From Alentia gelatinosa (Eukaryota > Annelida > Polychaeta > Phyllodocida > Polynoidae): a DNA stretch of 64,000 nucleotides. A program made the position numbers and the translations under genes. How positions within the stretch are numbered: the first letter of the stretch is position 1; each line of letters starts with the position of its first letter. The stretch is from positions 45,754,028 to 45,818,027 of the forward strand of contig OX465580.1 in NCBI GenBank assembly GCA_950022655.1, in the 5' to 3' direction. Below are positions 2,518 to 56,891 of this stretch, in pieces. A model generated the notes under the pieces. It saw nothing but the letters and a program-made list of their open reading frames with translations, did no database searches and was not told the origin of the DNA.

Positions 2518-4269
2518 TTAACCACATTCTGCAAAACTTTGGAATGCTGTTCTCTTCATACCTACTTCAACAGGTCTCGGAACTTCTTCCTTACAGTCCT
2601 TCTTTCCTACTTCAATATCATTGTTTCTCTTAATCTTAAGTTTCCGGCATTTTCCTATAATGAACTTCCGTGCATAGCACACAATTATACTCAAGATTCC
2701 AACAATAAAAATCATACCCCACATCAATGACTGTCTATAAGTTTGGTGCCAAACTGTACGAGTAGGCACTGGGTCAAGTGTCATCTTCACTGAATGGATA
2801 GTAGCACGATCAACTACCTTCAGATGTTCCAGTAACTTGCTATGAAATTCATGCGGTATTCGGTAAGTCACATTTGGGAACGTTATGACATGATAACGCT
2901 GGTCTAGCTTAGAAGTAAAGGTACGAGCTTGATATGTAATAATATCTGAAGAATGCAGGTTACACCCTTCTCTCAAGTGCCATAATTCAATTCCTTGAAT
3001 AGTATACGAGAAAGTCTTACCACTATTACAATAAACCTTAACACTATTTGTAACTAGAGATTGCATAATATACTTATTTCTAGACCAGGGATGAACAACA
3101 AGGTTACGTGCTACTTTAGTAACTTCAATAGGACAAGCGGAAACTGACTCACCTAATAAATCAAGTTCACATCCATTTTATTCCAACACTCTAACTTCAC
3201 ATATTTTGAAAGATCTACCTTTACACTTTTCAGGTATAAACATTTGTGTCCGTTGAGTGTTTATAGCTACTTCAATTCGAGGCAAAAGTTTTTCAGCATA
3301 ATCATGCTTAACTATTGGAAATGTTACAAACCGCCATAAGTAGTAAATAGAAGGTTCAGAAGCCCATAAACATACTTTATAGATAAGTCTACGTGGTTCA
3401 GCAACAACTAATTCCACATTAGTATTCTGATAATACCAAACCAGATCCTGAACTCTACCATGTTTAGACAAGTGATGCAATATTTCACTTAGATGAGTGG
3501 TAGATAGTATGTCCTCTGACAACTGACCATACTCCAACACTCTCCTAGCAAGCTTAAAGTGTGAGTGTTCCTTTTTATATTTATCTGCAGCTAACTCCAA
3601 TGCAGAAATCCACCGATCAAAGTGACGCGCCACTCTGACCTGGATTACGGCTCTACGAAGATGGTCCGTGTTTTCAGTCATTTGGTTTAACCGTCCAGTC
3701 ACTTTCTCTGCATGCTTCTGAAGTCGCTTAATGTCCTGTTGATTTTCCATGGAGTACTTACGAGTTAAGTTCACAACACTCAACAGCTCCCGTTGATTAT
3801 GATACACCGTGTCAACACTCTTTACTGCCTCGTCCACCTCAGCCTTCAGTGCGTCCACTTCAGCATCAGTAGCGAGCCCAAACAATGAGTGTCCTACATC
3901 ACCAATTAGATCGATGAGACCGAGAAGTTTCCTATTTCCACCAATATAAGATGTTGTAGTTGTTGACAACTCAACTTTATGGCCACTAAAGTTGATGTCA
4001 AGTCGATCAAGTCTTCCCATAGTGTGGTTGAGATCACCTTCAGCCAACCACTTCCTGTCAGAACTAACATGCGTTCGGACCTCCCGAACCCACGCCGGCA
4101 TGGGGGGTTGTACTGGCGCATGGATAGTAATGACTGCCGTCCATTCCGCTTTCATAACTCCAGCCTCACCAATCTTTTCAGCAATGACTCCATTCGTAAT
4201 CGGTTTCCGTATAACATCAGCTTCAACAGAGACAAGCATGTAGAAGGTAAGTCCTATAATTGCGTACAT
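2518..4269 (-). pseudogene. env: F-type envelope glycoprotein ORF interrupted by one stop
   Basis: The third ORF starts at ATG 4269, overlapping the pol end by 16 bases in another frame. It begins with a hydrophobic signal peptide (about residues 1-18). Near residue 115 is a glycine-rich hydrophobic stretch G-L-I-D-L-I-G-D-V-G-H-S-L-F-G, which fits the fusion-peptide region of baculovirus F and errantivirus Env proteins. Heptad-like helices follow. A TAA at 3178-3180 ends the first 363 codons; the same frame then stays open to 2518, and this downstream part holds a transmembrane segment (W-G-M-I-F-I-V-G-I-L-S-I-I-V) and a basic cytoplasmic tail. No clear R-x-K/R-R site precedes the fusion-like stretch, only N-R-K-L-L. 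As it stands the product lacks its membrane anchor. Family assignment is by pattern. Confidence 0.8.
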
Positions 4270-7200
4270 CTTGGTCGTTTAGGACCAGTATAATCAATAG
4301 CCCAAGGTCTTTTCCTATTAGACCTCCGAATACCGTGACTCGCAGACTCAGCTGGCATATCAATGTCCATTGACTCCTCAATACCGTCTGTCAACTGAGT
4401 GGTGTCATGAGTGGATGGTGCTACAGGAGTAGGTAAATGCGCAATAGTTGGCGGTGGCGCATCTGAAGCAGGCGGTGTCACTGCGTCGGAATGTTTTGTC
4501 TGAGGCTCCTTTGTTGATGGGGCTGGTTTAGGAGTTGTTTTTAATTTCTGGGGTCGAGTTCTGTAGTACCGTGTGACTCTTGGTCTAATTGACATCCAGT
4601 CACCGTCTGTGTCAACATGCTGTAGTTTGTCACGATTGTATACCTTTGTTCTTTCTCCCCCATTGATAGACTTGCACCACACCACATTTCCTCGTATTCT
4701 TGTCACCTCTTTCGGCATATCCCATTTTGAGTCAAAAGGTGCCCGCTCATACGCCTTTGGTAACACTCGATCTCCTACCTTAAGTGGTAATGCATTAGCC
4801 CGTTTCGTAGCTTCAGTGATATAACGTTCTTTTGATTTTTGTGTGTTTTTACAGGCATCATGCAAAGCATCTCCCATCCTCTCAAGTCGTTGACCCAAGA
4901 CAGTTGTTGATTCAGGAGCTCGATTGGAAGGATACCGAGCCCGTCTACCATATAGGAGGTAGAATGGCGAATAACCTGTAGTTTCAGACACAGACTGTCG
5001 GTATGCTAACAACGCAGACCCAAGATGCTCCTCCCATGTTGATATGTTATTGTTTACCAACTTCCGTAAAATGTCCTTTAGACTGCGATGCCATCTCTCC
5101 AACTTCCCATTAGTTTGTGGGTGATATGGTGTAGTACGTCGCACTTCCACTCCTAATTGATGTAAATAGTCTTGCAACGTGGCATTGGTGAACTCAGTAC
5201 CGTTATCGTGGATAATAATGGCAGGAACACCATGTCTAGGAATATAATCCCGGGAGAGTTTTTGTACAACCGCTTCTCCAGTTCTGTTGGAAATGGGATA
5301 GGCCTCAGCCCACCCTGTTGCGTGATCTATTAAAGTTAATAGGTACACATTGCCCTCTACCGATTTAGCCAGTGGACCAACCAGATCTATTCCAACTATT
5401 TCTCCAGCATAAGTCGCAGTAGGCATACCTACTGGTGCTGGCCGTGTCGTACGTGATTCGTTCATTCGACACGTTGGACAGTGAAATATTGTTGACCTTA
5501 CTGTATCTCTTTGTTTCGGCCAATAATATAACTCTCGGATCCGTTGCAAGGTTTTTGTTTGTCCTTGATGTCCCACCTCCGTATGAGCCTTCACAGTGAT
5601 GTCATGACGGTAGTCTATTGGCAGCACAAGCCGTGGGTATGACAATTGATCAGGTAATTCTTTTGTACACCACAATAAACCATCATGCCGATGAAAGTAA
5701 CTACCTTCATTATCTGCCAAGTCCCACTCATCCATTTCATGTTGTTTTTCACGTACCTCATCTTTGTTCAGTCCATCCCAACGCCAGGGCACTTCCTGCG
5801 CGGGATTAGCTTCAATGTCAACCCAGTCTGTTGTATTGCATTCTCCTACTTCAAGGCACGGGTTACGGGCGAGCATATATGCACCTACCTCATACCATTC
5901 CTCATCCTGAGTTGAGGGTACAATCCGTGAGAGCATATCAGCCCTTACATTGTTTTTTCCAGCTCGGTGCAGTATGGGTGCTCCATACTCGGCAATCAGG
6001 GAGGCCCAACGTTGTACCTTTGTATTCTTGACCTCACCTAAAAACAGGGCCTTAAGGGGCTTTTGATCTGTCACGATAACCAGTTCTGCCCCATAAAGAT
6101 AAGGCCTAAGAGTCTTTAATGCATGAACAATAGCATAGGCCTCTTTCTCAATGGTACTCCATTTGAGTTCAGAACCTCGCAAAGTGCGTGATACATATTG
6201 GATAGGCCTCTCTACACCGTTGCTGTCTTTTTGCACTAATATGGCTCCTATTGCCTTGTCCGAGGCATCAGTGTAGAGAATATATGGGTCCCCAATAGAT
6301 GGATGTGCCATAACATCACTCGAAACTAGTGCCATTTTTAGTTGATTGAAGGCCTCCTGGCATTGTTCTGTCCAAATCCAGGGTACACCTTTCTTCGTCA
6401 GGTACTGCAACGGTTCTGCAATGGCAGCATACCGACAGATCAATTGACGATAGTACCCAGCCATTCCTAGGAACCGGCGCAACTCAGACACATTGGTTGG
6501 AGGGTGTAGATCATTGATGGCACATGTCTTCTCGGGATCGGCAGCAATACCATCCCCAGACACTATATATCCTAGCAGAGGTAGCTGCCGCTGTTTGAAT
6601 TGACATTTCTCCTTTTTAACAACTAGTCCTTCCGCCTCCAGACGGGCTAGCACTTCCTGGACATGTTCCTCATGTTCTTCCTGTGTCTTGCTGTAAATCA
6701 CTATGTCATCAATATATACCATTGCGCAGCGACCTATAGCATTTCCCAAAACCCTTTGCATTTCTCGTTGAAACACAGCGGGCGCATTTGTAAGTCCAAA
6801 GGGCATACGTACCCACTCGTACAGGCCATTGTGTGTAACAAAAGCAGTCTTTGGAATATCACATTCCTCTACCGGAATTTGCCAATATCCAGATTTTAGG
6901 TCGAGGGTGGTGAACCATGATGCTCCTGTGAGGTTATCGAATATATCTTGTATTCGCGGCAAAGGATGGGCGTCTTTGCGAGTTATACTATTTAATTTGC
7001 GATAATCTATGCAAAAGCGAATACTTCCGTCCTTCTTGGGAACTAGAGTCACAGGTGATGCCCAGGGTGATTGGGATGGACGTATCACCCCTTTTTCTAA
7101 CATCTTTTGGATTTCTTCTTCTACCACTTTTCTCTTGGTCAGTGGCAAACGATATGCCCTCTGACGGATAGGAGGATGATCACCGGTATCAATGTTGATG

Positions 7201-7499
7201 TGTACTCCATTAGAACACCCTATTTCACTTTGAAACACCTTAGGAAATGCCTTTGTCCATCTAGAGAGTTCAGTCTCACCAAGTTCAAGGTCACTTACTT
7301 CTGGCAAGGAACTCTCATATAGTACACCATTAAAGAATACTTTCCCTTTTTCACAGTCTATCACCGCCTTTAGTTTCTTCAACGTGTCCTGGCCCAGTAA
7401 CAGATCGTGTTTAATGTTGTCCGTTATAATGACATCAATTCTTTCCTCCATCAAGTTAACAACAGTTCTGCCTTTCACAGGGAGACTCTCACCTGATTT
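4254..7499 (-). CDS. pol: Pol: protease end, reverse transcriptase, RNase H, integrase
   Basis: About 1,080 codons with no break. Counting from the GTG codon at 7478 as residue 1: the protease tail L-L-L-G-Q-D is at 26-31; RT spans about 110-310 with L-D-L-K-S-G-Y at 192-198, the F-G-L-T-N-A-P motif near 227 and catalytic Y-I-D-D at 255-258; RNase H starts with Y-T-D-A-S near 402 and has H-R-A-G-K-N-N near 504; the integrase zinc finger H-x3-H...C-x2-C is at about 632-670; the catalytic D,D,E are near 698, 758 and 794. A proline-rich tail follows with a basic patch. No ATG is needed if the product comes by frameshift. The env ORF starts 16 bases before the pol stop. The intact length suggests that the element was active recently. 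Confidence 0.95.
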   Translation of the reverse strand, partial: KSGESLPVKGRTVVNLMEERIDVIITDNIKHDLLLGQDTLKKLKAVIDCEKGKVFFNGVLYESSLPEVSDLELGETELSRWTKAFPKVFQSEIGCSNGVHINIDTGDHPPIRQRAYRLPLTKRKVVEEEIQKMLEKGVIRPSQSPWASPVTLVPKKDGSIRFCIDYRKLNSITRKDAHPLPRIQDIFDNLTGASWFTTLDLKSGYWQIPVEECDIPKTAFVTHNGLYEWVRMPFGLTNAPAVFQREMQRVLGNAIGRCAMVYIDDIVIYSKTQEEHEEHVQEVLARLEAEGLVVKKEKCQFKQRQLPLLGYIVSGDGIAADPEKTCAINDLHPPTNVSELRRFLGMAGYYRQLICRYAAIAEPLQYLTKKGVPWIWTEQCQEAFNQLKMALVSSDVMAHPSIGDPYILYTDASDKAIGAILVQKDSNGVERPIQYVSRTLRGSELKWSTIEKEAYAIVHALKTLRPYLYGAELVIVTDQKPLKALFLGEVKNTKVQRWASLIAEYGAPILHRAGKNNVRADMLSRIVPSTQDEEWYEVGAYMLARNPCLEVGECNTTDWVDIEANPAQEVPWRWDGLNKDEVREKQHEMDEWDLADNEGSYFHRHDGLLWCTKELPDQLSYPRLVLPIDYRHDITVKAHTEVGHQGQTKTLQRIRELYYWPKQRDTVRSTIFHCPTCRMNESRTTRPAPVGMPTATYAGEIVGIDLVGPLAKSVEGNVYLLTLIDHATGWAEAYPISNRTGEAVVQKLSRDYIPRHGVPAIIIHDNGTEFTNATLQDYLHQLGVEVRRTTPYHPQTNGKLERWHRSLKDILRKLVNNNISTWEEHLGSALLAYRQSVSETTGYSPFYLLYGRRARYPSNRAPESTTVLGQRLERMGDALHDACKNTQKSKERYITEATKRANALPLKVGDRVLPKAYERAPFDSKWDMPKEVTRIRGNVVWCKSINGGERTKVYNRDKLQHVDTDGDWMSIRPRVTRYYRTRPQKLKTTPKPAPSTKEPQTKHSDAVTPPASDAPPPTIAHLPTPVAPSTHDTTQLTDGIEESMDIDMPAESASHGIRRSNRKRPWAIDYTGPKRPRCTQL

Positions 7500-7675
7500 T
7501 CAACAACTGGTTCTAGCAAAGGAACTCGTCTAGTTTTGTCACACAACGCTAGCCAGAATGATTGTCTCATCAGGGTACACGCCGCACCCGTGTCAACCAG
7601 AGCAGTGGCTTCTTTTCCGCTGACATCTACCACTACTCGAAGTCGGCCATCGAGTACGGCTACTGGCCGTTTCCC
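7475..7675 (-). CDS. Aspartic protease of the gypsy element
   Basis: This reading frame, -1 to gag, encodes the N-terminal part of a retropepsin. It opens at the slip site, reads a short beta-strand-like run and then the catalytic motif L-V-D-T-G-A at about 7588-7605, with the active-site Asp at the GAC codon. It ends at a TGA at 7475-7477. The second conserved protease motif, hydrophobic L-L-L-G-Q-D, lies at the start of the pol frame, so the protease domain spans the two frames. The two frames overlap at 7478-7499 and are again offset by -1. I saw no slippery heptamer in that overlap, so a one-base indel is likely. The domain matures the polyproteins in the particle. Confidence 0.8.
   Translation of the reverse strand, partial: GKRPVAVLDGRLRVVVDVSGKEATALVDTGAACTLMRQSFWLALCDKTRRVPLLEPVVENQVRVSL
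7634..7675 (-). promoter_or_regulatory. Candidate -1 ribosomal frameshift signal between gag and protease
   Basis: In gag frame the minus strand reads AAG GGA AAC, giving the slippery heptamer G GGA AAC (7669-7675), which has the canonical X XXY YYZ form used by some retroviruses. The gag frame stops three codons later (7660-7662), and the protease frame is exactly -1 relative to gag. Twelve bases downstream is a perfect 7-bp stem, TACTCGA (7650-7656) with TCGAGTA (7634-7640), around a 9-base loop. The spacer is somewhat longer than the usual 5-9 bases. Confidence 0.65.
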
Positions 7676-8595
7676 TTACCAGAAGCTTTGTACTGGCTAC
7701 AAGCCTTATCCTTGGCCATGTGTCCAGCTTGGCAACAATTATAACAGACAGGTTGGCCGTCTGTTGTCTAGGCAGGAATCCCCTTTTCCTTTAATTTTTG
7801 TGGCCCTTTACTGCGACCTCGGCGTTTCTTATCCAGCTGTTTCTGCATCTCAGCCATTTGACTCTCTAACTTCTGTACAGTATCCATCATTTGCTGGAGA
7901 CCAGTACCGGAAGCTACTTGATTTACACTCACCGGATTTTTCAGGGCACCTATTTCCATTGGCTCCTCCTTTCGCGTCACACCGGCAAGGTTTCGTGCCC
8001 TATCCATGGTCATGGCACGTTCGTAAGCTGCCTCTAGAGTGAGTGGTCGGGTAGCATGAACCTGGATGCGAGTTTCACTTGACTGAATACCAGCAATGAA
8101 GGTACGAGTCAGTCTTTCCAAAACCACCTCCACCCCTAACTCCGCATCCGTATATGCCCGATGTACTGCTTGGTCGAAGTCGCGGGCATATTCTCGTACA
8201 TCTTGCAGGACCCCCTGTTTCATTTCATCTACGGCTTTCCTGAGATATTCATTTTCGTCAGCACCCAGAAACTCTTGCTCGATTCGTTTCCTAATGCGCT
8301 CCCATGTAATGGGTTCCTGGTCAGCTGGTTGTCGGCGCCCATTTTCTTCATCATATTCTCTTATCCATCTGCGCACTGCCACATCCAACCTTCCTTTCAC
8401 CAAATAACCAACTGTGGCTAATGTTACCTGATGGGTAGCAGCACACCATTCCTTAGCACTGGATATTTCCTCTACCCATTCCCGTAGGGCAGTCTTGTTT
8501 ACACCATCCTGTACACCGATACGTTTAGCATGATGTTCCATTAGTTTTTGTATGGCCCGACCATCAATCCCATCTTGTGGATTTTGCCCATCCAT
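7660..8595 (-). CDS. gag: Gag polyprotein of the gypsy element, with in-frame UAG before the zinc knuckle
   Basis: The structural protein starts at the ATG at 8595, about 210 bp inside the 5' LTR, and reads 275 codons to a TAG at 7768-7770. The middle part, around residues 90-190, has the helix-rich pattern of the retrotransposon gag domain (W-E-R-I-R-K-R-I-E-Q-E-F, then Q-G-V-L-Q-D-V-R-E-Y-A). A short coiled coil and a basic segment KKRRGRSKGPQK follow. The same frame continues past the TAG through a zinc knuckle, C-x2-C-x4-H-x6-C (last spacing two longer than the usual x4), to a second stop at 7660-7662. The TAG therefore cuts off nucleocapsid. Its context (TAG ACA ACA) is not a known strong readthrough signal, so a point mutation is the simpler view. 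A GGGAAAC slip site lies just before the second stop. Confidence 0.85.
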
Positions 8596-8783
8596 CTTGT
8601 CAGTTCTGTTTAACTGAATAACTAATTCATGGGAGTATCAAAACTCGATACTGCAGCGCCCAAAACAGTTATATCAGTGCCCAGAACTAACAACTAAATC
8701 AGACATACCTGTCCTTCATTCAGGTGTCTCCTCCATTCGAGATGTTGTCCTTTTATCCAGAGGTCTTGTCCTTCTATTTAGAT

Positions 8784-13969: not shown

Positions 13970-13992
13970 TTTTTTTTTTTTTTTTTTTTTTC
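13970..13992 (-). other. Poly-A tail of the LINE
   Basis: A run of 23 T on the plus strand, that is poly-A on the LINE strand, sits about 210 bp after the ORF2 stop (14204). It marks the 3' end of the inserted copy. Confidence 0.75.
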
Positions 13993-14203
13993 ATGAGTAG
14001 ATACAAGACAGTCTGCTGAGGTACCAGGTTTTGTGTGTCTTCCATTGACAATGTAGTATAGTCTTGTACAAGAACAATTCTGTCTAGATAATGAAAATAT
14101 ATTACAGTGTACAGAATATACAGTTGATGGGGGTAATGAAATGAGATGAGTTTTGGTCTACACCTACTTGTCCCAGACAAATGCTTATTTCAGATGATGG
14201 TTA

Positions 14204-15894
14204 CTACCTCATCACCATTTTACATTTCATCTTTACATGTTTTTTATACAGGTATGCCGAGCAGTTTTGTACTTCACGCGGTAAATCGTTCCATACTAGC
14301 ATTCCCTCATAAATGGGTTTTTTTCTGAAAAAGGATGTTCTCGGTCGTTTTAGTTTTACTTGTCTCTTGAGTTGAGCTCTTGTTCTAGGATCAACATTAC
14401 ACATATTTTCACTGGCGAAACGTTTCATAAATACATACATCAGATACAATCTTCGCTGGTCCAAGAAGTCAATATTACACTTGCTATGTAACTCTTTAAC
14501 ACTTAGATCTATCATCTTTGTCTTCATGCATATTCTTAGACCCCGATTTTGTAATTTTTGTAGCCCATGAAGCAGATTTTTATTAGCACCATTTATAAAG
14601 TAACCGCTAAAATCAAACAAGGGTGTTATCATGGTTTTTATATATTTTGATACAGGTTTCTTTTGTAATATCTTTCCTAATTTTTTGAAGTTGAAACAAT
14701 CTCTGGTTGACCTTTTTAGTGGTACATGCTATTGAGTGTTTCCAAGATAGTGTATTGTCTAGTGTTATGCCGAGATATTTGAAAGATTCACATTTTGGTA
14801 TTTTACTATTGTTTACTATTACATCTAGATTATTAATTGTCATCTTATTGTTATTAAGTTGGCTAGCTGATCCAAAAATACATAGTTTAGTCTTTTTTTC
14901 ATTGATAATCATATCATTATCAGAGCACCACTGTTCTAGGAGAATTATGTCATTTTGTACACGATGAATGCTATTGTTAATATCTATGTCATTAGTATAC
15001 AAGACTAAATCGTCAGCATAAAAGATGTGAGAACATTGAAAACGAATATCTTTAATGTCATTAATAAAACAATTAAAAAGTAAAGGACCTAAAATGCTGC
15101 CTTGTGGAACCCCTGAAAAATTTTCAATGCTAGAGGACAGAGTGCTGCCAACTCCAGTACACTGATTCCTAGTACTAAGATAACTTGCTATGCATTTGGT
15201 AATGTATTTCCCTATTGAAAAGTGCTTTAGTAATTTTTCTATGATAAATTTTCCTGTTAACTCGGTCGAATGCTTTACTAAAATCTATGAAAAGGCATGC
15301 AGTTAGGCGTTTATTATCTCTATGTGTGTATAAGTCGTTTACCAAGTGCATAACAGCGTCAGTTGTTCCCTTTTTCTGGCGAAAACCATATTGTTTATCG
15401 TTGATTAAGTTCTTGTTTTCAATAAAATTAGAAATATAAGTGTGTATAATACATTCAAATAACTTTCCGGGAATGGGTAGTAAAGAAATCGGTCTCCAAT
15501 CATTCATAGTAAGAGGACTGGATGTTTTGGGAATCGGGATAATTTCGGCAAAGGCCCAAGATTTAGGGAAAGAGGAATAATCTAGAATATTCTGAAAAAG
15601 ATATCGTAGTTGGTCTATTAGGACAAAAAAGGCATCTTTCAGGATCCGAGAATTCACTCCTCGAAGACCACTAAGTTTGTGTTCATCTATATCAGAGACT
15701 GCTCTATAAACCTGATCTAGAGTTATCGTTAAATTTGCAAGGGCGTCATAGTTATAATCATAGTTATCCAATAAGTCTGCCGATGCCTTATTCGGTGTGT
15801 TTCCACCAACAGATGCGAAGCGGGAGTTTACATAATCAACCATAGCACAACCTTCAATATTACAGTCTTTTTCGTCACAATAGATTTTTGTCAT
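14204..15894 (-). pseudogene. LINE ORF2, reverse transcriptase and C-terminal part
   Basis: The RT part of ORF2 copies element RNA at the nicked target. The piece 15894-15175 has D-W-R-P-I-S-L-L-P and the motif A region C-L-F-I-D-F-S-K-A-F-D. Then, in a different frame, 15130-14613 carries G-V-P-Q-G-S-I-L-G-P-L-L-F and the catalytic F-Y-A-D-D-L (about 15008-15030), and 14632-14204 carries the typical LINE C-terminus L-Q-N-R-G-L-R-I-C-M and V-W-N-D-L-P. At least two frameshifts separate these pieces (near 15180-15240 and 14613-14632). The catalytic Asp residues themselves are preserved. Similarity is to CR1/L2-type RT; I would not fix the clade more finely. Confidence 0.85.
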
Positions 15895-16016
15895 ACTAAT
15901 GTCCTCTTTAGGGTCATATAAGTTCTTAGTTAGGTTCCAAAATTTCCTTGGATTATGTGAAGCATTTGATAGCTTTGTTTTCCAATAATCACTTTTTGCT
16001 TTACGAATGTTTTTAT

Positions 16017-16394
16017 TTATCTGTTTTTCAAAGTATTTACTACTTTATATATTGCGTCTGATTTGTAAAAGTCCATATTTAATAATAACTCCTTCCTTTC
16101 GATCATAAGGTCAATAATATCTTCCGTTAGCCATTCTGCCTTTTTCTGACTAAATTTGTAGAGTTTAATTGGACATTTCTCGTTTAGATATGCTTCTATC
16201 TTATTAATGATAATATGCCATTGTGTTTCAGGGTCACAACTATGATAAAAATCGGACCAGTCTTGTTGAAATAAAAAGCTCTGAAAGTTTAGAATATCAT
16301 ATGCTTTATAACTTCTACCATAGAATTCACATGGTTCCGAAATCGGGGGGGGGGGGGGTAAACTGCCGGTGAGCAACAATAGCCAAGTGGTCAC
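16017..16394 (-). pseudogene. LINE ORF2 linker between endonuclease and RT
   Basis: This 125-codon frame carries the connector that follows the endonuclease, with the phrase A-E-W-L-T-E-D-I-I-D-L-M-I-E-R-K, similar to the 'W-i-t-e-e-I' block of the LINE at 22579-25005. It is out of frame with the endonuclease ORF because of the G/C homopolymer at about 16347-16356, and out of frame with the RT piece after about 16020. It has no enzymatic motif of its own. Confidence 0.7.
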
Positions 16395-17022
16395 TTATTA
16401 AATGCGTCATGATGGTTACTTTCGCTATAAATCTACTATTACTCAACAAATGATCGATACAGGTGCCGCTTTCTGGAAGGGTAATTTCTTCCACATGATT
16501 CTTAAGGTTATTGTTACGTAGAAATTCAAATAGTTTTTTGCACTCTGGGGTATTGCATGTTCTGGTGTTAATATTATCATCTCCAAGAAAATTAAATTCG
16601 TAGTTTTGGTATCTGTTGTCATTTTTAATTTTGACTAGTTTGGATACAAATAAGTCAATATCACCACTTGGGGGTCGGTAATAATATACAATTAACATTT
16701 TCTTATTGTTTAGCTTGTTCACCTTTAACACCATTATTTCACAGTTCTCATCTGATACTGTCCATTCACACTCTAGTGTGCAATATTTACAGTGCTTATT
16801 CTTAACATAACAGCAAAGACCACCACCGATTTTATCGTCTCTATCTTTTCGAAAAATTATATAACCATTACGAGTAATCATGCCCATGGTATGTCGATGG
16901 GTCAACCAAGTTTCTCCAAAGCACATGTAATCCACATCATTAAATAAATATCCTACCTCTTCAATATGTTTATACAAACTCCTTATATTAAGGTAACCAA
17001 TTTTCAGAGTGGGTCTAGCCAT
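16347..17022 (-). CDS. LINE ORF2, APE-type endonuclease
   Basis: The endonuclease nicks target DNA to start reverse transcription. From the ATG at 17022 the frame reads I-G-Y-L-N-I-R-S-L (catalytic Asn region), C-F-G-E-T-W-L (catalytic Glu), V-Y-Y-Y-R-P-P-S-G, then F-L-G-D-D-N-I-N in place of the usual G-D-F-N, I-D-H-L-L-S-N and S-D-H-L-A-I (catalytic Asp-His). All main active-site residues are present. The frame ends in a run of prolines caused by the homopolymer at 16347-16356, after which the element continues in another frame. A longer start at 17106 exists, but the family normally begins close to the first beta strand. Confidence 0.85.
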
Positions 17023-17106
17023 TATCTTCGGTATTGATGATAAGACACCTAGCATGAGTGAGAATGAGGTGAGTATGACAGATGATTTGCAGGACCATGC
17101 GAGCAT

Positions 17107-17541
17107 ATACTGCCGGCATATCCGCGTTCACCGTTGCTAGGTGCATACAGCTATAAAGCTTTCACACAGTAACGGGTGGCATGGTGCAAAGTGTCATATA
17201 GATATTGGCGCTGCTCCCCGTTATATTTTATTAAACGTGGACTATATTTCCATTAATGTTCAGACGGATGTGAAGAACTTATACAGAGGGTGATATGCTG
17301 ACTTAGTGAAGTCAAAGCAAAGTACAATAACATCTGACGACCTGAGAGTAGGCACTATTAAGAGTCATATGTTCATCATACAGAAGTAGCAAAATTCACG
17401 GCAATATCAATGATAGCATAATATCGACAGATGTTATTATTATAGATTTCATATAGGTTAGAACCAATACGACACAATATAGCTCAGTTTGGTATGACTT
17501 AGTGAAGCCTAATACCTCTCCGAGGATAGTATGTTCGTGAG
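17107..17541 (-). other. Spacer between the SGNH ORF and ORF2 of the LINE
   Basis: This 435-bp stretch inside the LINE has no open frame with recognisable content. It may be an intergenic leader for ORF2 or decayed coding sequence. I saw no repeat or RNA motif in it. Confidence 0.4.
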
Positions 17542-18177
17542 TCACTGATGTATCCCTGCCTGGATATTTTTTAACAATGCTCTAATCAAGATTTTGACCA
17601 TTTTTTTAACGATAATAGTTGTGTCTGGATGACATCCATCATTCATCAGTGTGAGCAGGTGGTAAGTGCGTCCGGTGTTGCTCCTATAGCGATGTATTGT
17701 GTGGTGGATTCGAGGGGTATAAAAACCTTGCGAGTCGTTAAGTCGCCCAAGTTCAGTAGATAAGCACAGTGCTCTATCATTAAGTTCAGCTTGGTCTTCA
17801 TTATACCTGTCATTGCCTTTGTTCCAGGTCCGCAGGCATATTGAATAAACTGTAGTGAAGATCATCTTTATATTAATGTCACCTATCCTTTCTTCCTCGA
17901 TCATTTTCTCACATTCGTTTAGGATTCGTACCATCTGCCCTTCTTTATCCTCCCGTCTAAGCATTACTAGCTTCTCGTCATCTTTGGTTGTTAGGTCGCA
18001 AATACCAGCCGAAACGTATATTATTCTGACTCCAGTCAGGTAGCCAGGTGATCGTAATGACATTCGTATTCTAGCTAATGAGGCGCCACTAATGCTTTCA
18101 GTAACAAAAATCTGCCTTATACGTATATCACGTTGTAGAAAGCGAACCCGGGAGTCACCTATCAAGAGTCTACTCAT
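17542..18177 (-). CDS. SGNH/GDSL hydrolase ORF of the LINE
   Basis: An SGNH-fold esterase of the kind found in ORF1 regions of CR1-like LINEs. From the ATG at 18177, residues 7-9 are the block I G-D-S motif with the nucleophile Ser, followed by R-V-R-F-L. Block II is within E-S-I-S-G-A-S-L, block III corresponds to S-A-G-I-C-D-L-T (the usual G-x-N-D has C for N), and block V is D-G-C-H-P-D, giving the catalytic Asp and His. The whole 211-codon frame is unbroken. A longer in-frame start exists at 18225, but it overlaps ORF1. The chosen ATG overlaps the ORF1 stop as ATGAGTAG, which suggests translation by termination and restart. The substrate is unknown; a role in membrane or particle handling has been suggested for the family. 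Confidence 0.8.
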   Translation of the reverse strand: MSRLLIGDSRVRFLQRDIRIRQIFVTESISGASLARIRMSLRSPGYLTGVRIIYVSAGICDLTTKDDEKLVMLRREDKEGQMVRILNECEKMIEEERIGDINIKMIFTTVYSICLRTWNKGNDRYNEDQAELNDRALCLSTELGRLNDSQGFYTPRIHHTIHRYRSNTGRTYHLLTLMNDGCHPDTTIIVKKMVKILIRALLKNIQAGIHQ

Positions 18178-19425
18178 CTTGTAGGTCTTTTGGTGCAGAC
18201 GGATTAGCAGTTGGTTGTTGCTCATTGCCGTTTAATGCAGATGGATTAACGACTCTTTGGACTTCTGTAGCAGACACAGGTTTATCAGACGCTGGTTCTT
18301 TATCGGTTGTCTGCTGCTTAGCTTCGGCGTTAATGGTGCTTGACAGGGTAGCGCGCACTCGTTCGAGTATGCGACCTGCTTGATTGAGTCCTAGGTAGGT
18401 GTTATTGTCGTAATGGTCACTCTCGAAGCTGGCCCGCCTCCCCAATATGCGTCACGGGTCCCCTCGATGATTTGGTTCGGGTGGGTATTCACTAATTTAG
18501 AATTTAGATCTGGATGTTGTAGGAATTTGGCCAGAACAATCTTTTCCAATATTAGCGTTTTCTTTGAGTCCCAATCAGGTATGTTAATGGTTTTTCCAAG
18601 ATTTGTTACCTCATACGGGCTTTCTGTCTCCAGAATTTTGGTACCAAGAACTGTGTTTCCTACATGTCCTGCTTTTGCATAGACATATGCATGTTCAGCC
18701 GAATTAAACTCATTTGACTTCATGATTTCATACGTTATCTTGCCTTCATTGTCCCTAGTGAACCATGGGATAGACATTTGAATAGGCGTTTGGTACATAT
18801 TATTCAAATATGATCCGTGTCCAGCAAATACAATAGAACCAAGTTTCGTTGTCCTCGGGCCACCCCCAAAAGGTTTTGACCAAGCTGTTTTCATCGGGTG
18901 TTTGTCAACATGCTGTTTTGCTGCTTCAGTCTCCATTGGTGCGGGGTCAGGTGCGTTTGTCACACCGTTGGCGGGGTCCTCTGTCAGTTTGGTATTAGGT
19001 GCGATTGCTTGTGGTCGTGGGTTCTCAGGCACTTTAGGTATGGGCTTGGATGCGTCATTCGTTATTATTACAGGGGTACTTCGATTCCCCGGCGCTGGTC
19101 TCCAGTCAGGTGGATAGATGTCGACGGGCAGATCATTCATGTCGATATAGTTGTAGACTGTTCCGTTGACCTTAATCCCTTCAGGGATGAAGTCTGCATT
19201 GTTGCCAATGCGGCGATTGTATCCGACTACCATTCGTCCTATCCCACGGCTTTTCCGTATTTGCCACGGTTCGTCAGGTCTAATTACTAGTTTACAATTC
19301 AGACTTTGACCGGTGACTCGATGAGCGTTTCGCATGAAGCGCTCGCATGCGCATTGATTCGAGAATGAAACGATGATTGGTTTTGGTCTATCGTTTGGTG
19401 CATTATTTTTTGGGTTTCCCGACAT
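18170..19425 (-). pseudogene. LINE ORF1 second half: RRM end, CTD and NADAR domain
   Basis: From 19425 the frame reads the second half of an RRM (R-P-K-P-I-I-V-S-F), a C-terminal domain (I-R-P-D-E-P-W-Q-I-R) and the segment I-K-V-N-G-T-V-Y-N-Y-I-D-M-N-D-L-P (residues 84-100). A proline-rich linker follows to about 190. Residues 195-330 are a NADAR domain: F-A-G-H-G-S-Y-L-N-N-M-Y at the S-N-F position, S-A-E-H-A-Y-V-Y-A-K-A (conserved Glu), W-D-S-K-K, A-K-F-L-Q-H-P-D-L and D-A-Y-W-G-G-G. A frameshift near 18430 moves the end into the frame 18445-18170, which carries the expected last motif G-L-N-Q-A-G-R-I-L-E-R-V-R. The domain order matches the relic at 9412-10732. NADAR proteins are N-glycosidase-like enzymes, some removing ADP-ribose from guanine. 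Role in the LINE is unknown. Confidence 0.85.
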
Positions 19426-19436
19426 GCGACTGATAT

Positions 19437-20210
19437 TTAATCATCATCTTGAGATAGATTTAGGTGCATTTCATTACAAACATTGTCTAGAATAAAATGC
19501 ATATCTTCATTCTGACGGTGGGGTATCCCTAGCAAAATAGCATTTCTCTCTTTGTCTGTGAAGAAGCATCGTGTGTGCGGATGTCTTGGTACTGGACCTT
19601 TCATGTTAGCTACAGTAGCCTCAGCATATGTATGCGGTTTATTGGATGTATTTCCTCCAGGGGTAGACGGAGAACCATCAGTACCCTTCTAGGCGGAAAC
19701 GAGTAGGTCTAGTGTTGAGCGTGTTTCGTGTAGGTCTTTTTCCAGTTTCTGTATTTTTGTCAGCATTTCGTTGTGGATTTCTGTGTGTGCTTGGTCATGT
19801 TTTGTTTCGTTTGCCTTTACGCTAGCTGAGAGTGTGTCTATTTGTTTGGTGAGATCTGTTTTTGCAGAATCTATCTCGGTTTTTAGTTTATCACTCAGAG
19901 TGATTGTTATATTGTCCATTTTTGAGTTGAGCTGGGTTTGCATATTTATGATCAGCCGACTAAGATTGAGATTAGGGTTGTCTGAGTTTTTCTCAATTTG
20001 AGAGTTTACATCAAGGTTGTCTGAATCGGGTAATTCAATCGGATTGTCAAAATCCTCCGGTTTGTACCTTTTGTTTGTGTCTTGCGTTTTAATAAAGGTT
20101 ATTTCTTTAGACATTGTGCGCTCTCTCTTGCGCTGGCCCTTGCTACGAGTGTTGCCGGAGCTCGGTGGGGTAGACCCGGTGCTGGACCGCTTTGCCTTAC
20201 CTCGCCCCAT
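19437..20210 (-). pseudogene. LINE ORF1 first half: coiled coil and start of RRM
   Basis: From the ATG at 20210 comes a basic N-terminus (G-R-G-K-A-K-R-S and S-K-G-Q-R-K-R-E-R), likely nucleic-acid binding, then a long heptad-rich helix (about residues 60-165, with N-M-Q-T-Q-L-N-S-K-M-D-N-I) expected to form a multimeric coiled coil. A TAG at 19689 interrupts it; the same frame then continues through a proline/threonine linker to N-A-I-L-L-G-I-P-H-R-Q-N-E-D-M, the first strand and helix of an ORF1p-type RRM, and stops at about 19440. The second half of the RRM follows in a different frame from 19425. Thus one stop and one frameshift separate it from its NADAR half. Confidence 0.75.
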
Positions 20211-20337
20211 AGCGATGTGCACAGTGAAGAATGTTTCACAGAAATATCGAAAAACCACACTGACCTTGTTATATCCAGATACCTCAGTACTGTCTATGTG
20301 ACTTTACAGTGTACTTTCAGTCATTTCTAGGTCTGAA

Positions 20338-20819
20338 GGTCCGTTTGAGATCACATTAAATCCGATCTAGGGAGCAGCAGTGCGCAGCATGTCTTCACTT
20401 GCGAGAGGCCATTATTATTCCTGTTACTGATCGCCCACGCCGAGCAATCTTCCCATATTAATGATTGATTGCAAATGTTGAAATTATAGTGGTAGGACTG
20501 GGTTTGATAACTAAAGATAATCTGTTAATATTTCAAATAATAGAATGGTTGCAGAAGTACATTGCTGAGATGTATGGAGAAAACTACCCCATCGAGGAAC
20601 TAGAGCCTACTCACTCAAAAACCTTTTAACAAATTCCCTGTTGTCTGCAGAGTAGGAAAACGATAATATCTATGAGCCTGACACTCAACTGGATGCAGGG
20701 TGCCATCGACAGGTAACTTGAAATAATTCTAAATAATAACTAAAGGGAAGGTGGCAAAAACAGATAATATCTTTGTAAATATTTATGATATTTCTATTTT
20801 TTCATATTTCAGAGACATT
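20338..20819. other. Non-coding stretch between LINE and Crypton relic
   Basis: No gene is supported. Low-scoring frames with many stops cover the region. It may hold the N-terminal part of the Crypton-like relic in unrecognisable form. Confidence 0.4.
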
Positions 20820-22018: not shown

Positions 22019-25000
22019 CTTTTTTTTGTTGTTTTTTTTGGATAATGTTTATTCTGGAGTTGAACTAGTAAGGACTGGAACGTCCTATTTTCGGTAGGCT
22101 CCAGGGCCATTTATGTTTGCCTTAATTGATCTATGAAGTATAATAATAATAACTATGTACATCTAGGAGATTTCTAGTTCACATTTAACAGATATTTATA
22201 ATATCATTTGTTTTCTAATATCGACATGTCAATGGTATATACAATGATATTCTTCATCAGTTTCTTAGATGTGGGTAGGGTATGGGTTGGAGTATCGTAT
22301 AGATTATCTCAATGTAGACCATTATGATAACTCGATTTTCAGTATTTTACTGTCTAGTATGTTAGTTGTCTGGCAAGTAGACGTGCTTTGTTTTCTTCCT
22401 TAAATAATTTATAGTTGTCTATTAATCTCATTTCAGTGGGAAGTATGTTCCATAGCTTTGCTGATTTGTATAATACGCTACGTCTGTAGGTCTCAGTTTT
22501 GAAGGCTTTCTGAGTTAGTGTTGGTGCAGTGTTTGTTCTAGTGTTGACTATACTTAGTGCACTTTTATATGCTTCTAGTCAACTTCGTTTGTAGGCTACG
22601 TTCAGTATATGCGATTCCCGTCTCTCTCTTAACAGGTTTATCCCGCTATTTCTGTGGATTAGGGCTGTATTAGTATATTGATTTACTTTTAGGCATACCT
22701 TCAGTGCTTTGTTTTGCATTTTTTGCAGTTTATCCAAAAGGGTGGGACTACAGTTATGTATGAATACGTCACCATACTCAAAGAAAGGTAGTATCTTTGC
22801 TTTATACACTTTTATCGCTTGCTGCTTGGTCAGGAATTTCCTAATAAGTGTAAGGAGATGCAGTTTGTATCCAGCTTTCTGTATTAGATTGTTTATATGT
22901 GCGTTAAAGTTAAGATTCTCATCCAATTTTACCCCCAGGTAGTTGAATGTTTTAACCATTTCCAGTTGTTCATTGTTCAGCATAACTTTTGGTATTTCTG
23001 CTTCCCTTAGTTTCTGGTGTGTACCAAAACGCATAAGTTTTGTCTTGCTGGTGTTGATAGTGAGCTTGTTGTTTGCGCACCATTTTGCTAGCCTATTTAG
23101 GTCTTCTTGTAGGGCCATGAAGGCTGTGTTTGGGTCTTTGTGTGCTGTGTAAAGAACAGCGTCGTCTGCGTATAATTTTATTCTACAATTTTCTATTTGG
23201 GAATCTATGTCGTTTATATAGATTAGGAACAGAAGAGGTCCTAATGTGGACCCTTGGGGTACTCCATGTGTAATGTCTTTGGTTGAGGAACATTTCTTAT
23301 TTGCTATCGTGTATTGTTTTCTATTACTTAAGTAGTTGTGTATCCACGCACATGTTGTTTCGTGAAGGCCATAGGTTACTAGTTTTTTGTTTAGTATGCT
23401 GTGATCTACCGTGTCGAAGGCCTTAGCGTAGTCTATGTATACTGCTAAAGTTATTTCTTTATTATCTATGTTTTCGAAGAGGTCATCAGTGTATTCAGAA
23501 ATAGTTCCTATAGTCGATCTTTTAGGTAGGAAGCCCCCTTGGTTTTTATTCAGCAGGTTATTTTCCAGTAGGTGTTCAAGGACATTTTGATGTATTAACT
23601 TTTCTAGGATCTTTCCTGGAAGTGGAAGTTCTGATATTGGTCGTTGGTCGGTAACTTTTAGGCTATTGGTTTTCTTTGGTATTGGTGTGATACGCCCTAC
23701 CTTCCAGACGTCTGGGAAAATACTAGTGTCTATTGTTAGTTGAAATATATATGTTAGTTGTTTGGTAAGCTTTTGGAATGCATCTTTTAGTATCCGAGTT
23801 GAGAGGAAGTCTATTGCTGAGGATTTATGAATGTTAATTTTGTTAATTAGTTGTTCTACTACTTTCTCTGTGATTTTTATTTTCTTTGCAATATTTTCTT
23901 CCGCTTCCCGAATGTTTTTCCACTCCTCATAGAAGTTTTGTGCGAGTTTCGGCCCTATTTGCGTGAAAAAATTGTTGATGTATTCAGCTGTTTCGTCACA
24001 CGGTATTCGCTCCTCAGTTTCTAGATTTTCAATTGTGATTTGTTTCGTTGTTACCTTGTCCGGAATTATTTGTTTTATTCTTTTCCAAAATTTATTTGGG
24101 TCTTCATGCATGTTACTTTGAATGTAGTCCTTTTTGGCATTTATTACACTTTGTTTACAGTTGTTTCTTGCTTGTTTGGCATATGTATAATCCTCTGGAT
24201 CGTTTGTTGTCAGGGCATGCTTCCATGCTCTGTCTTTTTAAATTATTTCCTCTATTTCCTCTGTTATCCAAGGACTCTCTTTACTCTTAAATTGTAGGTT
24301 TTTTAGGGGACACATGGTTTCTAGGGAACGCTTTATGTTTCCAGCTAATATATCCCAACATTCGCTAGGGTCCTCACATTGGTAGAACGGTGCCCAGTCG
24401 TACATACTTAGGTCTTGTTGGAAGTTACCTTTGTTGTAGTTCTTATACGATCTCCCTAGGATTTGTTTAAGTTCATATTCTTCTTTCTTCTTCTTTTTTG
24501 TGATGTATATGGCCCGATGGTCGCTGAGGCTATATGTTATTGTGCCGCTGTTTGTAACATGTGCTATGTTCGAGAAGGCTAAGTCAATAGTATTATCATA
24601 GCGTGTTGGAGTGTTGATGTGCTGTTGTAACCCAGTTGTGTTGACCAGATTTTTTAAGATTCTCATTTCATAAGAGTTTTCTTCCTTGTAGTTTATATTA
24701 AAATCCCCTAAGATGACATACTCATGCTTGTTATAGGATTCTCTTAATTTTTCAATAGTATCTATTAAATAATTTACTGCGTTTTGTGCACTATGGTCAG
24801 GTGGTCTATATACTATGCCTATGATGAGCTTCTTTTGGTTCGATGGTTCGAGCTTTAGCCATTTGCATTCAATATCTTCTGTACTTATATCAATATTTAG
24901 TTGGTCAAGTTCGCTAGTGGTATCGGTGATGTCATTCTTTACATAAGCTGCTATGCCTCCGCCAATTTTGGTTTCACCCTTTTCGTTTAGCCTGTGGGTA

Positions 25001-25110
25001 TACACTCTATGAGCATCTATCTACATCCACGAAGCTATGATTAGGTCACTTATTATAGCCGATTCGCGTGGTGCGAGATTCACGACATTAATAGTCCATA
25101 AACTAGCTAG
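22019..25110 (-). mobile_element. Second LINE, 5'-truncated, CR1-like
   Basis: Minus-strand LINE copy of about 3.1 kb. Its 3' end is marked by two A-runs on its own strand (T-runs at about 22020-22039), followed inward by a 3' UTR with AATAAA-like words and the ORF2 end. ORF2 runs from the endonuclease (about 25105) to about 22362. No ORF1 is present, which fits 5' truncation during insertion. Its RT differs clearly from that of the LINE at 14204-15894, so this is a separate family. Confidence 0.85.
22362..25105 (-). pseudogene. ORF2 of the second LINE: endonuclease and RT
   Basis: The frame 25005-24238 carries the endonuclease: G-G-G-I-A-A-Y-V-K, G-I-V-Y-R-P-P-D, I-L-G-D-F-N-I-N and S-L-S-D-H-R-A-I. 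Upstream to about 25105 an N-terminal strand is readable, but the E-T-W-L block with the catalytic Glu seems deleted and a TAG lies at about 25020. A TAA at 24238-24240 separates it from the rest in the same frame. The piece 24111-22579 (510 codons) is RT: D-Q-R-P-I-S-E-L-P, V-Y-I-D-Y-A-K-A-F-D, H-G-V-P-Q-G-S-T-L-G-P-L-L-F and L-Y-A-D-D-A-V-L. The C-terminus (K-L-W-N-I-L-P near 22450) follows in a shifted frame. With the missing Glu and two breaks, it is dead. Confidence 0.85.
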
Positions 25111-33550: not shown

Positions 33551-34557
33551 TTAAGAATTGTTATTGAGGGACCTAATCAAAGCCTGGTTCACAGCCTTGG
33601 CATCAGTGTCTTTGATGTAGGTCCGGTGGGCATTCGACTTCCAGCCCCCGTACCGCTGGATGGCGAGTTCCGGCATACCAGCCTGGAATGCCTGCGTCGC
33701 GGCAGCCTTCCGGAGGCTGTGGAGTGTGTAGGTAGGGGGCTGGTTTGCCGCCTGGAGGAGGGACTTCCATTCCTTCGACAGGGTTCTCGTAGTGAGTATT
33801 TCTCCGTTTGCTAGGCTGAGGAATGGAGCCGTAGGGTCGGCCGTAGGAGCGGCTGCGAGCATGGTCCTGATGGCGCGCACCGGGCACGAAGACAGTTCGG
33901 GGGATGCTTGTATCACCACTGTATTTTCCTCCTCCGCCTTCTGCATATTTTTCGCGGCTTTCACCCGTATTGATGCTTGAGTGGGCGTGACGACCACGTC
34001 TCCTGTCACGCCGGGTCGTACTTTGCCGTAGATGGTGGAGCTACTTCGCTTTGCCGCAGCGCGGCAAAGAAGATGATCAGAACCGCGGCCTGCAGCCCAA
34101 TGTGTATCGGGGAATCGGTCAGGGCCGTGAGGGCCGCTCTGAAGACGTCCATTGGGAATGGCGGCTTGACGTTGGGATGGTATTCCTTGTTCCGTCTCAT
34201 GGCATCCAGCGCGCACTTTACCCGGAAGTCCTCCGTCTCCGCGACATCGCCGCCCGTCAGCCGGAGGTGCGACCGCACGTGCGACAGCTGGTTCGCGACC
34301 GTCGCAGGGGAGGGGGAATGGCCCGCGACATACTCTAGGTACGCCATGGTAAAGCTCACGGTGGGTCTCTGGGGGTCCGCCCCCATCCTCCGGCAGAAGG
34401 CTAGGTAGGTCGCGACGGCACTCCGCTGGTTCGCGACCGTTCCGGGGGCACGCGCCTCGCATTGCCGCGCAGATGCCCTCGTCTGGAGTGATCGTAGCGC
34501 CGGATCTGCATGCGAGAACAGGGTAGAAAGAAGTGTGAGTGCAGGGAATAACTTCAA
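33551..34557 (-). pseudogene. Tyrosine recombinase of the DIRS-order element
   Basis: This enzyme integrates the element by strand exchange instead of a DDE integrase. The N-terminal part reads in the frame 34557-34006, with a SAM-like core-binding region (V-A-N-Q-R-S-A-V-A-T-Y-L-A-F-C and V-S-F-T-M-A-Y-L-E-Y-V) and the first catalytic Arg in F-F-A-A-L-R-Q-S-E. The C-terminal part reads in the other frame to 33551, with L-H-S-L-R-K-A-A-A-T (the H-x-x-R pair) and G-G-W-K-S-N-A-H-R-T-Y-I (final His/Trp region and the nucleophile Tyr). All four key residues are visible. A frameshift near 34006-34030 splits the gene. It follows RNase H with almost no gap. Confidence 0.85.
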
Positions 34558-34589
34558 CGAGAGAGTGAAAGTTTATATAATTAACGGCC

Positions 34590-36120
34590 GTGGCAAAGTC
34601 TCTCGAGGTCAGGTGGGCTCGGCTGAGGGCGTCTGCTACGGTGTTAAGTACCCCAGGGACGTGTGTGTACACGTAATCCACCTGGAGTCTGGCTTGTACC
34701 GTCCAGGCCTGACGGGCACACTCGGCCAGGACGGGGTTCCTGGCACGCCCTGACCTGAGTGCCTGGAAGGTTCCCATGTTATCGCAATACACTTCCATAC
34801 GGGTCCCTCGGTCGCGATCCGTGAGGAAAGTGCACATGGCGTAAACCGTGTTGAGGGCCTCGAGCTCCGCGATGCAGTCCACGGGGTCCTCCACGGGGCA
34901 GACTTTCCCGGAATAGTATCTACCATCCGTGCCCCCTATTCCGCTCAGGCACGCGTCCACTATGATGCACTTGGTGGGAGGCCCTCGAGGTATCAGGGCA
35001 TGGCCGTTCCATCCCTCGGCGAACCGCAGGAACCACTGGAGGTCCTGCCGCATCTCCGAGTTGATGTTCATGTAGAAACCGGCCATTCCCGGAGGGCCTC
35101 GAGCAGTTTGCTGATGAACGGTCGGGCCGGCCGTATACACTTGGCGACGTGGAAGACCCGACCGAGGACCGACTGAAGCTGTCGTTTCGTCAGCGATCGT
35201 TTGGAGGAGACGGCCCGTACGTGCTCCCGCATATCTTGTAGCTTGTCCCGGGGGATACTGAGGGACATATCCACGGAGTTTATGACTATGCCGAGCCATG
35301 TCACAACCCGGCTCGGGGCTGGGCTTTTTCCCTGGCCTCGGGGAGGCCCAATTCCTTGAAGAGCGCTCGCGCTGTCTCAAAGTCGGTGGCCGCCTTGTCG
35401 GCCGTCAGGGAGAGGATGATAAGGTCATCCAGGTACATCGCGGCATCGACCCCCTTCTGACCGAGGATTTTAACGATGGCATCTGCCACGCACTGCATGT
35501 GGTAGGAGGAGGCGCGGGCACCGAACGGCATGGCCGTGTCACAGTAGTACCCCTCCTCCCACGCGAAACAGAGCAGAGACCAGTCGAGGGGGTCGCACCG
35601 GAAGTTCTTGTATGCCCGGGCGATATCGATCGTGGACATATAGCTCCCCGGCCCCGAGGCCACCAGGCGACCGAAGAAGCCATCGACGGTCGGGAGGCCA
35701 TGTTCTCTCTCTTCACCGTAGACAGAGTTTTTGACGATATAGCCGTTAACGCTCGATTCCTTGCTCGATTCTTCACGCGTGTCATTAACGGCGACACGTG
35801 GCACCACGGGAGAAAGGGGGGGTCCTCGAATGGACCCATGAGGTTGGAATGCCCCTTCTCCTTGTCGATGAACTTCGCTATCTGGTCCGGGTATCCCGTG
35901 GCACTGGGATGGTTAGGCACTCCCCGCGTGTCGGTAACCGGGCCGGCGTACCCCAGGGGAAACCCGAACCTAACGAAATCAATCAGCTCCTCCTTTCCGG
36001 GGATACCCGAGAGGTACCGGATCCAGACTGGGATGTTGAGATCAGTCGGGATCTCGAAACGGGCCCCGAGGGCGTTGGGCATCCCCGTGCGCCGCACCTG
36101 GTCGTATATGTCGGCGTGTC
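34590..36120 (-). pseudogene. Reverse transcriptase and RNase H of the DIRS-order element
   Basis: The frame 36097-35780 gives the RT N-terminal block V-R-F-G-F-P-L-G-Y-A-G-P, N-H-P-S-A and M-G-P-F-E-D-P-P-F, typical of DIRS-type RT. The frame 35807-35301 gives S-T-I-D-I-A-R-A-Y-K-N-F (motif A), M-P-F-G-A-R-A-S-S and the catalytic M-Y-L-D-D-L-I-I-L (L-D-D in place of Y-x-D-D). A further frame (35304-35068) gives the thumb, K-R-S-L-T-K-R-Q-L-Q-S-V-L-G. RNase H is in the frame ending at 33551: I-I-V-D-A-C-L-S-G-I-G-G, E-L-E-A-L-N-T, V-Y-C-D-N-M and Y-T-H-V-P-G-V-L-N-T-V-A-D-A-L-S-R. At least three frameshifts separate the parts; catalytic residues remain. Confidence 0.85.
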
Positions 36121-36148
36121 CCGGCAGCCCGGGGGCTGAGAAGTGGGG

Positions 36149-56327: not shown

Positions 56328-56891
56328 TCACTCGTACCTACTATCCATTGTGTTTAGCCCGGATGGGGCTTGAGTTTTCATGCGGTGGATCCAGTTGTAT
56401 TCCACCTTGAGTCTCAACTCCCGGGCGGAGTTGCTCGCCGGGTGTCGATGTATGAAGTCCACTATAGTGAACTCCATGTCTTGTGTGCCTTCGTGTCCTG
56501 CTTTCCTGAAGTGTTTTGGAACATCACTGATTGTGCTCATCGTTTCCACAGATCTTAGATGTTCTCTCATGCGCTCCTTGATTTTGCGTTTGGTCTGGCC
56601 TATATATTGCATCCCACACTTTTTGCAGGAGATGCAGTATATGAGATTCGAGCTGTTGCATGTGACATTATGTTTACTGTTGTAGGTTTTGCCAGTGGTG
56701 TTGCTCTTGATCTTACCCGATGTTTCGATCCGTTTGCAATAGTTGCAGTTCAGCTTTCGGCACACGTTGCGGTTGGGATTTCTGTTTTTTCCCTGTCCTT
56801 CGTTTGGGTGGAAAGTCGTCTTGGCTCTCACCAAGAAGTCCTTCAGGTTCTTGGGGGGTCTATAGCCCTTGATCAGTCTGCTTTCGTACAA
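56328..56891 (-). pseudogene. GIY-YIG endonuclease domain of Penelope-like element 1
   Basis: The C-terminal nuclease cuts the target for insertion. The frame has a Cys cluster (L-N-C-N-Y-C), then N-L-I-Y-C-I-S-C-K-K-C-G-M-Q-Y-I-G-Q-T as the GIY-YIG strand pair, R-K-I-K-E-R-M-R-E-H with the catalytic Arg, and later a Glu (R-E-L-R-L-K-V-E-Y-N-W-I-H). The stop is at 56328. The frame start at 56891 is inside the protein; it is offset from RT by a frameshift near 56890-56940. The nuclease part itself has no internal break. Confidence 0.85.

Follow-up and report, generated by a model that had tools for sequence, protein, structure and literature searches.

A NADAR domain kept by selection in ORF1 proteins of two LINE lineages of Alentia gelatinosa

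We analyzed a 64,000-nucleotide stretch of the genome of the polynoid annelid Alentia gelatinosa, here called the window. It contains a decayed copy of a LINE retrotransposon, and the design of this element is kept by a large LINE group in the same genome. ORF1 of this design consists of a coiled coil, an RRM, a C-terminal domain (CTD), and a NADAR domain. ORF2 is a GDSL/SGNH-type hydrolase, and ORF3 combines an endonuclease (EN) with a reverse transcriptase (RT). In two distant LINE lineages, purifying selection acts on the NADAR domain, and its active site is kept. By analogy with tested NADARs, we give a probability of roughly 0.55 to the reading that it would be a functional enzyme that hydrolyzes guanine-ADP-ribose in the RNA or cDNA of the element, a substrate that we infer.

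Organization of the window element

The whole copy occupies 13970..20412 on the minus strand, as do all of its parts listed here. Its 5' boundary at 20412 is common to two relatives elsewhere in the genome (L042 and L043), and its 3' end is a poly-A tail, a run of 22 A at 13970-13991. ORF1 opens with a basic N-terminus and a coiled-coil-like part, the latter judged by eye (19689..20303); the first methionine (MGRGKAK) lies at 20210 and is followed by one in-frame stop. The same frame continues into the start of the RRM (19437..19688) and ends at a frameshift. The next open frame (18391..19440) holds the end of the RRM and the CTD in its first third, then a linker and most of the NADAR domain. 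The domain itself spans 18344..18837 and is broken by one frameshift near 18440, past which an open frame (18170..18451) carries the end of NADAR and a C-terminal tail up to the stop. The ATG of the hydrolase, ORF2 (17542..18177), overlaps this stop (ATGAGTAG). A gap of about 400 bases without a long frame (17128..17541), which lies within the colinear 97% alignment to L042, separates the hydrolase from the endonuclease of ORF3 (16327..17127; PF14529, E 7.6e-7). The reverse transcriptase (14613..16044) is read in two frames, 15175-16044 and 14613-15284 (PF00078, E 5.6e-15 and 2.3e-19). An open frame at 14204..14728 forms the C-terminal part of ORF3, of which 14420-14674 is matched by the RT of a second LINE in the window. 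With an endonuclease and a reverse transcriptase downstream of ORF1 and a 3' poly-A, the element is a LINE. A search for target-site duplications gave none at the window copy, nor at L022 and L044, two copies of another family.

The first-pass annotation had read a NADAR domain behind an RRM and a CTD from four ordered motifs. All four are present on the minus strand: SAEHAYVYAKA, AKFLQHPDL, and DAYWGGG share the open frame 18391-19440, and GLNQAGRILERVR lies in another frame, 18170-18451. The RRM and CTD hold up as well, on an alignment of 17 relatives and a weak profile match to L1 ORF1p. The RRM profile built from these relatives matches the L1 ORF1p structures 2ldy and 2w7a at E 0.002, and Pfam gave neither an RRM nor a transposase-22 match in the frames of the window and its relatives. 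On this match, ORF1 resembles the type II LINE ORF1 of L1 ORF1p (coiled coil, RRM, CTD), from which it differs by the NADAR domain added at the C-terminus.

The window copy is broken in several places and its region is rich in other transposons, as might befit a chimera in which a NADAR gene or another element had been inserted beside a LINE. The nearest other copy contradicts this. L042 (contig C8) aligns with window positions 20412-16378 in one piece at 97.2% identity, and a further three blocks extend the match to 14044, the limit of the L042 stretch compared. The two are colinear across ORF1, the hydrolase ORF, and the endonuclease, and the interval from there to the reverse transcriptase is about 1.3 kb longer in L042. 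L043, at the protein level a 76% relative, begins its homology to the window at the same 5' point, 20412, and relatives carry a continuous RRM-CTD-NADAR frame. In L043 the whole of ORF1 (687 aa) is a single frame that covers NADAR positions 31-162 of 163 (E 6e-24). Because colinear copies at other loci begin at this same 5' boundary, the neighboring insertion that the first-pass annotation had held against its own claim is not borne out, and we rejected it as having practically no chance of being right.

How widely is the design kept? A NADAR profile search of the 1.23-Gb genome returned 3136 first-look candidates. The best 150 were scored and all exceeded the cut-off; 93 of them sit in open frames that reach at least 500 aa, and a stop interrupts the match in 4, leaving 146 without one. 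Because these are the best-scoring 150, and our loci were drawn from the same set, intactness is biased upward. We counted 23 loci, 20 hand-picked for variety (L021-L040) and three chosen for their short frames (L045-L047). The known relatives L042-L044 were kept outside this count, as were L013-L020, short cuts that mostly overlap others. In 22 of the 23, an ORF1 with NADAR is followed by endonuclease and reverse transcriptase on the same strand, whole or broken. Together with the colinear copy and the continuous ORF1 frames, this lends strong support to the claim that NADAR is built into the LINE ORF1. The exception is L034 (C5:15167051-15176621), where one frame of 1040 aa encodes an LRAT domain, repeats, and NADAR at the C-terminus, and the stretch read holds no LINE downstream of it.

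The family of L022 and L044 moved recently, since these two copies are 98.8% identical over 6973 bp and share their start base and poly-A end, with unrelated flanks on different contigs. Two separate observations concern single loci. At C11:26293400-26302600 (L043), copies of the window family stand head to tail at a spacing of about 5.4 kb (three copies, two of them within L043), and the 3' part of the reverse transcriptase is absent from the repeated unit. The genome's best NADAR match (L013/L041, C11:13149326; E 3e-50) is perhaps a host gene.

Identity, active site, and selection of the NADAR domain

The Pfam NADAR profile (PF08719) matches the first frame of the window domain at E 3e-18, with 67 bits against a cut-off of 35.1, so the profile hit on which the first-pass annotation staked its reading is there. 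The piece past the frameshift gave no Pfam NADAR match alone. E. coli YbiA (2b3w) is matched by the window NADAR at 1.6e-6. What marks the YbiA subfamily, according to the text available from PMC11125620 and PMC11543638, is that the third catalytic residue is Glu instead of Asp or His. This position is Glu in all 21 LINE NADARs aligned, window included, and in five of five more (L042, L044-L047), which places the LINE NADARs, as judged from sequence, in the YbiA subfamily.

Searches beyond the genome found few relatives. Against the protein database, neither the 349-aa piece (576 candidates) nor a 680-residue ORF1 (4469 candidates) gave a match at 1e-3; with the NADAR piece (7 candidates), P0001 was the single match, at 32% identity. 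Viral contigs yielded no relative of the window's NADAR piece, hydrolase, or RT. A search with a two-row NADAR alignment retrieved NADARs from ten viral and two bacterial loci.

NCBIfam TIGR02464, named for riboflavin biosynthesis intermediates N-glycosidase, also matches (E 9.4e-16). Its name raises the alternative that the domain acts as an N-glycosidase on another base or nucleotide, like the riboflavin-intermediate type. The score of 58.4 bits, with the pieces flanking the frameshift scored apart, is below the family's own equivalog cut-off of 73.7, by which the window NADAR would not be a member. Furthermore, the NADARs tested in the available parts of PMC11125620 and PMC11833690 act on guanine-ADP-ribose. 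We consider another substrate quite unlikely and continue to favor ADP-ribosyl-guanine.

Among the 21 LINE NADARs, 21 of 154 well-filled columns are invariant, and these include three active-site residues: the Glu in the SAEHAY motif, a Lys seven positions further along, and the Glu in IIEGT. In the window these codons are at 18694-18696, 18673-18675, and 18463-18465, followed by an Asp at 18451-18453 and a Trp at 18442-18444 (all minus strand). Four more copies (L044-L047) keep the whole triad. In L042 a stop codon replaces the first catalytic Glu and the other two residues are kept, which brings the count to 25 of 26 LINE copies. With the window copy broken and L042 stopped at this Glu, both are dead copies. 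Alignment A3, of 12 non-LINE NADARs and that of the window, shows no variation at the three triad positions either. One bacterial NADAR (L012), with His where the third catalytic Glu is expected, was excluded from A3 and included in the tree. The triad corresponds to catalytic positions reported in PMC11543638, as far as its available text goes: E88 and K95 in the E. coli C7 protein and E43 and E125 in the NADAR of P. nicotianae. The latter two fit the positions in 8bau, assuming a two-residue offset counted from the alignment.

We measured selection in 14 pairs of LINE ORF1s by the Nei-Gojobori method, with silent sites near saturation in most of them. NADAR dN/dS is 0.047-0.175 in seven pairs; dS is saturated in the other seven. 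For the rest of ORF1 the ratio is 0.122-0.226, above that of NADAR in all five pairs where both could be computed, and dN is lower in NADAR than in the rest of ORF1 in 14 of 14. The least saturated pairs give 0.058 for NADAR versus 0.151 for the rest of ORF1 (L026/L030) and 0.175 versus 0.226 (L027/L035).

Retention of the three catalytic residues bears on a second alternative, in which NADAR is a reader: it would bind ADP-ribose on protein or nucleic acid and anchor the LINE particle where ADP-ribosylation is abundant, for example at DNA breaks or in stress granules. LINE ORF1 proteins are particle and targeting proteins, which would suit such a role. In addition, the cutting residues are themselves in contact with the bound ADP-ribose (PMC11543638, in the part available), so their conservation alone is no proof of cutting. 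A pure reader, however, need not keep all three catalytic residues, and nearly every LINE copy does. We regard the reader as unlikely and the hydrolase as the better account.

Two reverse transcriptase lineages and a separate hydrolase

The NADAR LINEs divide into two lineages. EN and RT of L038 match L1 ORF2p over their length (E 3.9e-86), and four loci (L023, L027, L032, L035) are 66-72% identical to L038. These five form lineage B, which by its sequences would fit the L1/Tx1 group. The first set contained 19 LINEs; the 14 outside lineage B, together with the LINE of the window, make up lineage A. Its member L025 matched R2 at 1.5e-11 and gave no L1 match at 1e-3. The RT piece of the window matched L1 ORF2p at 1.5e-6 and R2 at 1.1e-5, and clusters with lineage A in the RT tree. 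Taking an EN-RT closest to L1 ORF2p among solved structures as the mark of the L1/Tx1 group, the window's lineage A appears to lie outside it. Since lineages A and B both carry NADAR, one ORF1 design, in part with the hydrolase, sits on two distant reverse transcriptases.

In the NADAR tree, a branch with 100/99 support separates the 13 non-LINE NADARs (P0001, ten viral, and two bacterial) from the rest, and the five lineage B NADARs form a clade, also at 100/99. Lineage A falls into three sets (93/59, 98/91, and 92/80), the last of which also holds L034. The RT tree, rooted at its midpoint only, recovers the same three sets without L034, each on one side of a branch (100/100, 99/98, and 93/94). 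The NADAR of L013 has a long branch and joins one lineage A set weakly (73/89). Between lineage A sets, RT identity is 28-30% (L025 versus L022 and L039), which indicates that NADAR has been carried in LINEs for a long time. A second LINE in the window, at 22354-25020 on the minus strand, shares 32-39% RT identity with the NADAR LINE and falls among lineage A in the RT tree. Since it has no known NADAR, the domain is not established as a mark of the whole lineage.

LINE ORF1s are known to shuffle domains, and exchange of ORF1 between LINE lineages is a known theme (both PMC4120745, in its available text), so that NADAR might be a passenger captured by chance and without function. The agreement of NADAR and RT trees across deep splits argues against this, as do the dN/dS of 0.05-0.18 in computable pairs and the kept active site. 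We rejected the passenger reading on these three grounds as very improbable; a functional enzyme remains our reading.

The hydrolase ORF, with GDS/TDS/SDS, GxN/C, and DGxH motifs, is present in 17 of 21 loci examined. It accompanies NADAR in 15 of 15 lineage A loci (L043 included), in two of five in lineage B, where L027 has a fragment, and not in L034 (0 of 1); L045-L047 also match it. Pfam support varies. L021 scores over the cut-off for PF00657 and just under it for PF13472 (2.8e-7; 31.7 versus 32.9), L025 and L038 match PF13472 at 0.0015 and 0.0002, under the cut-off, and the window's own ORF gave no Pfam hydrolase match, its third block reading GICD. The blocks GDS, G, GxN, and DxxH of the SGNH/GDSL family are found in the relatives, which are assigned to it on these motifs. 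A profile of 18 hydrolase ORFs matched 4c1b, the esterase of a type IV LINE ORF1, at 1.2e-5, and two designed proteins at 1.5e-5 and 5.1e-5. We take 4c1b, listed as an ORF1-encoded protein, to be ZfL2-1. The type IV esterase shares the GDS, GxN, and DGxH motifs; unlike it, the hydrolase here is a separate ORF beside the NADAR-bearing ORF1. From hydrolase to the next EN-RT frame is 414 to 2507 bases (16 loci among L021-L040 with both read). In L040 a 215-aa frame lies between the two.

Possible role and known parallels

NADARs reverse guanine ADP-ribosylation on DNA and RNA, as described in the available portions of PMC11543638, PMC11125620, and PMC11833690. ORF1 proteins would coat the RNA of their element. 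As ORF1 wraps this RNA, a tethered NADAR would most likely keep it, or the new cDNA, free of ADP-ribosyl-guanine, by removing ADP-ribose from its guanines. The benefit could lie in countering the modification of foreign nucleic acid by a host enzyme, or in removing stray modifications that would otherwise halt reverse transcription. With the active site kept by selection, a chemical attack on the RNA or DNA of these LINEs may be reversed by the LINEs themselves. An enzyme kept in an RNA-wrapping protein would point to nucleic-acid ADP-ribosylation as something that affects retrotransposition.

The first-pass annotation had likewise proposed an enzyme that protects LINE RNA or cDNA from ADP-ribosylation. 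This proposal fits the kept active site, the purifying selection, and the published chemistry; no DarT-like or Scabin-like writer was found to go with it. Profile searches of the animal's own genome gave no match for DarT, although a control matched, and none for a Scabin-like enzyme, for which no control matched either. Clams have CARP-1, which puts ADP-ribose on guanine in DNA (PMC11209040, from the part available). The NADARs of DarT1-NADAR toxin-antitoxin pairs also have Glu, Lys, and a third acidic residue. They differ in that this third residue is Asp (PMC11543638, as far as its available text goes), not the YbiA-type Glu seen here, and this genome has no DarT by profile. A more speculative extension, which we offer tentatively and think would probably prove wrong, is that an undescribed innate defense of animals ADP-ribosylates guanines in retrotransposon RNA or cDNA. 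Two distant LINE lineages would then share a portable cassette of NADAR and hydrolase as a counter-defense, mirroring the DarT-NADAR conflict of bacteria and phages.

According to the available text of PMC11125620, it is still unclear what NADARs do across eukaryotes, animals among them. The earlier statement that no LINE with this domain had been described is out of date. A 2025 paper (PMC12477816) says in one sentence that the ORF1 proteins encoded by several Tx1 LINEs in the oyster Crassostrea gigas appear to hold NADAR, and it also places NADAR inside Gypsy retrotransposons of Ectocarpus. The oyster elements share a YbiA-type NADAR in ORF1, and lineage B has a similarly L1-like EN and RT, so the available part of that paper covers lineage B in kind. 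The same part makes no mention of a hydrolase ORF, a test of selection, or a second LINE lineage. The window's element, outside the L1/Tx1 group, differs from them too, a comparison made by description and not by sequence. The open-access literature searched yielded no other paper that links NADAR to retrotransposons or LINEs, and none there reported NADAR in a non-Tx1 LINE, its pairing with a separate hydrolase ORF, or selection on it. What appears to be new is thus the second lineage, the pairing with a hydrolase ORF, and the evidence of selection. NADAR LINEs add an ORF1 architecture that crosses LINE superfamilies.

The window holds further elements. A Gypsy-type element at 2518-8637 has gag and pol; a further ORF there matches Baculo_F weakly, below the cut-off. 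A DIRS-like element at 33551-36148 has a reverse transcriptase and a tyrosine-recombinase-type integrase. Two Penelope-like elements lie at 56328-57634, with reverse transcriptase and GIY-YIG matches, and at 60203-63254, with DNA pieces of the second 66-77% identical to the first.
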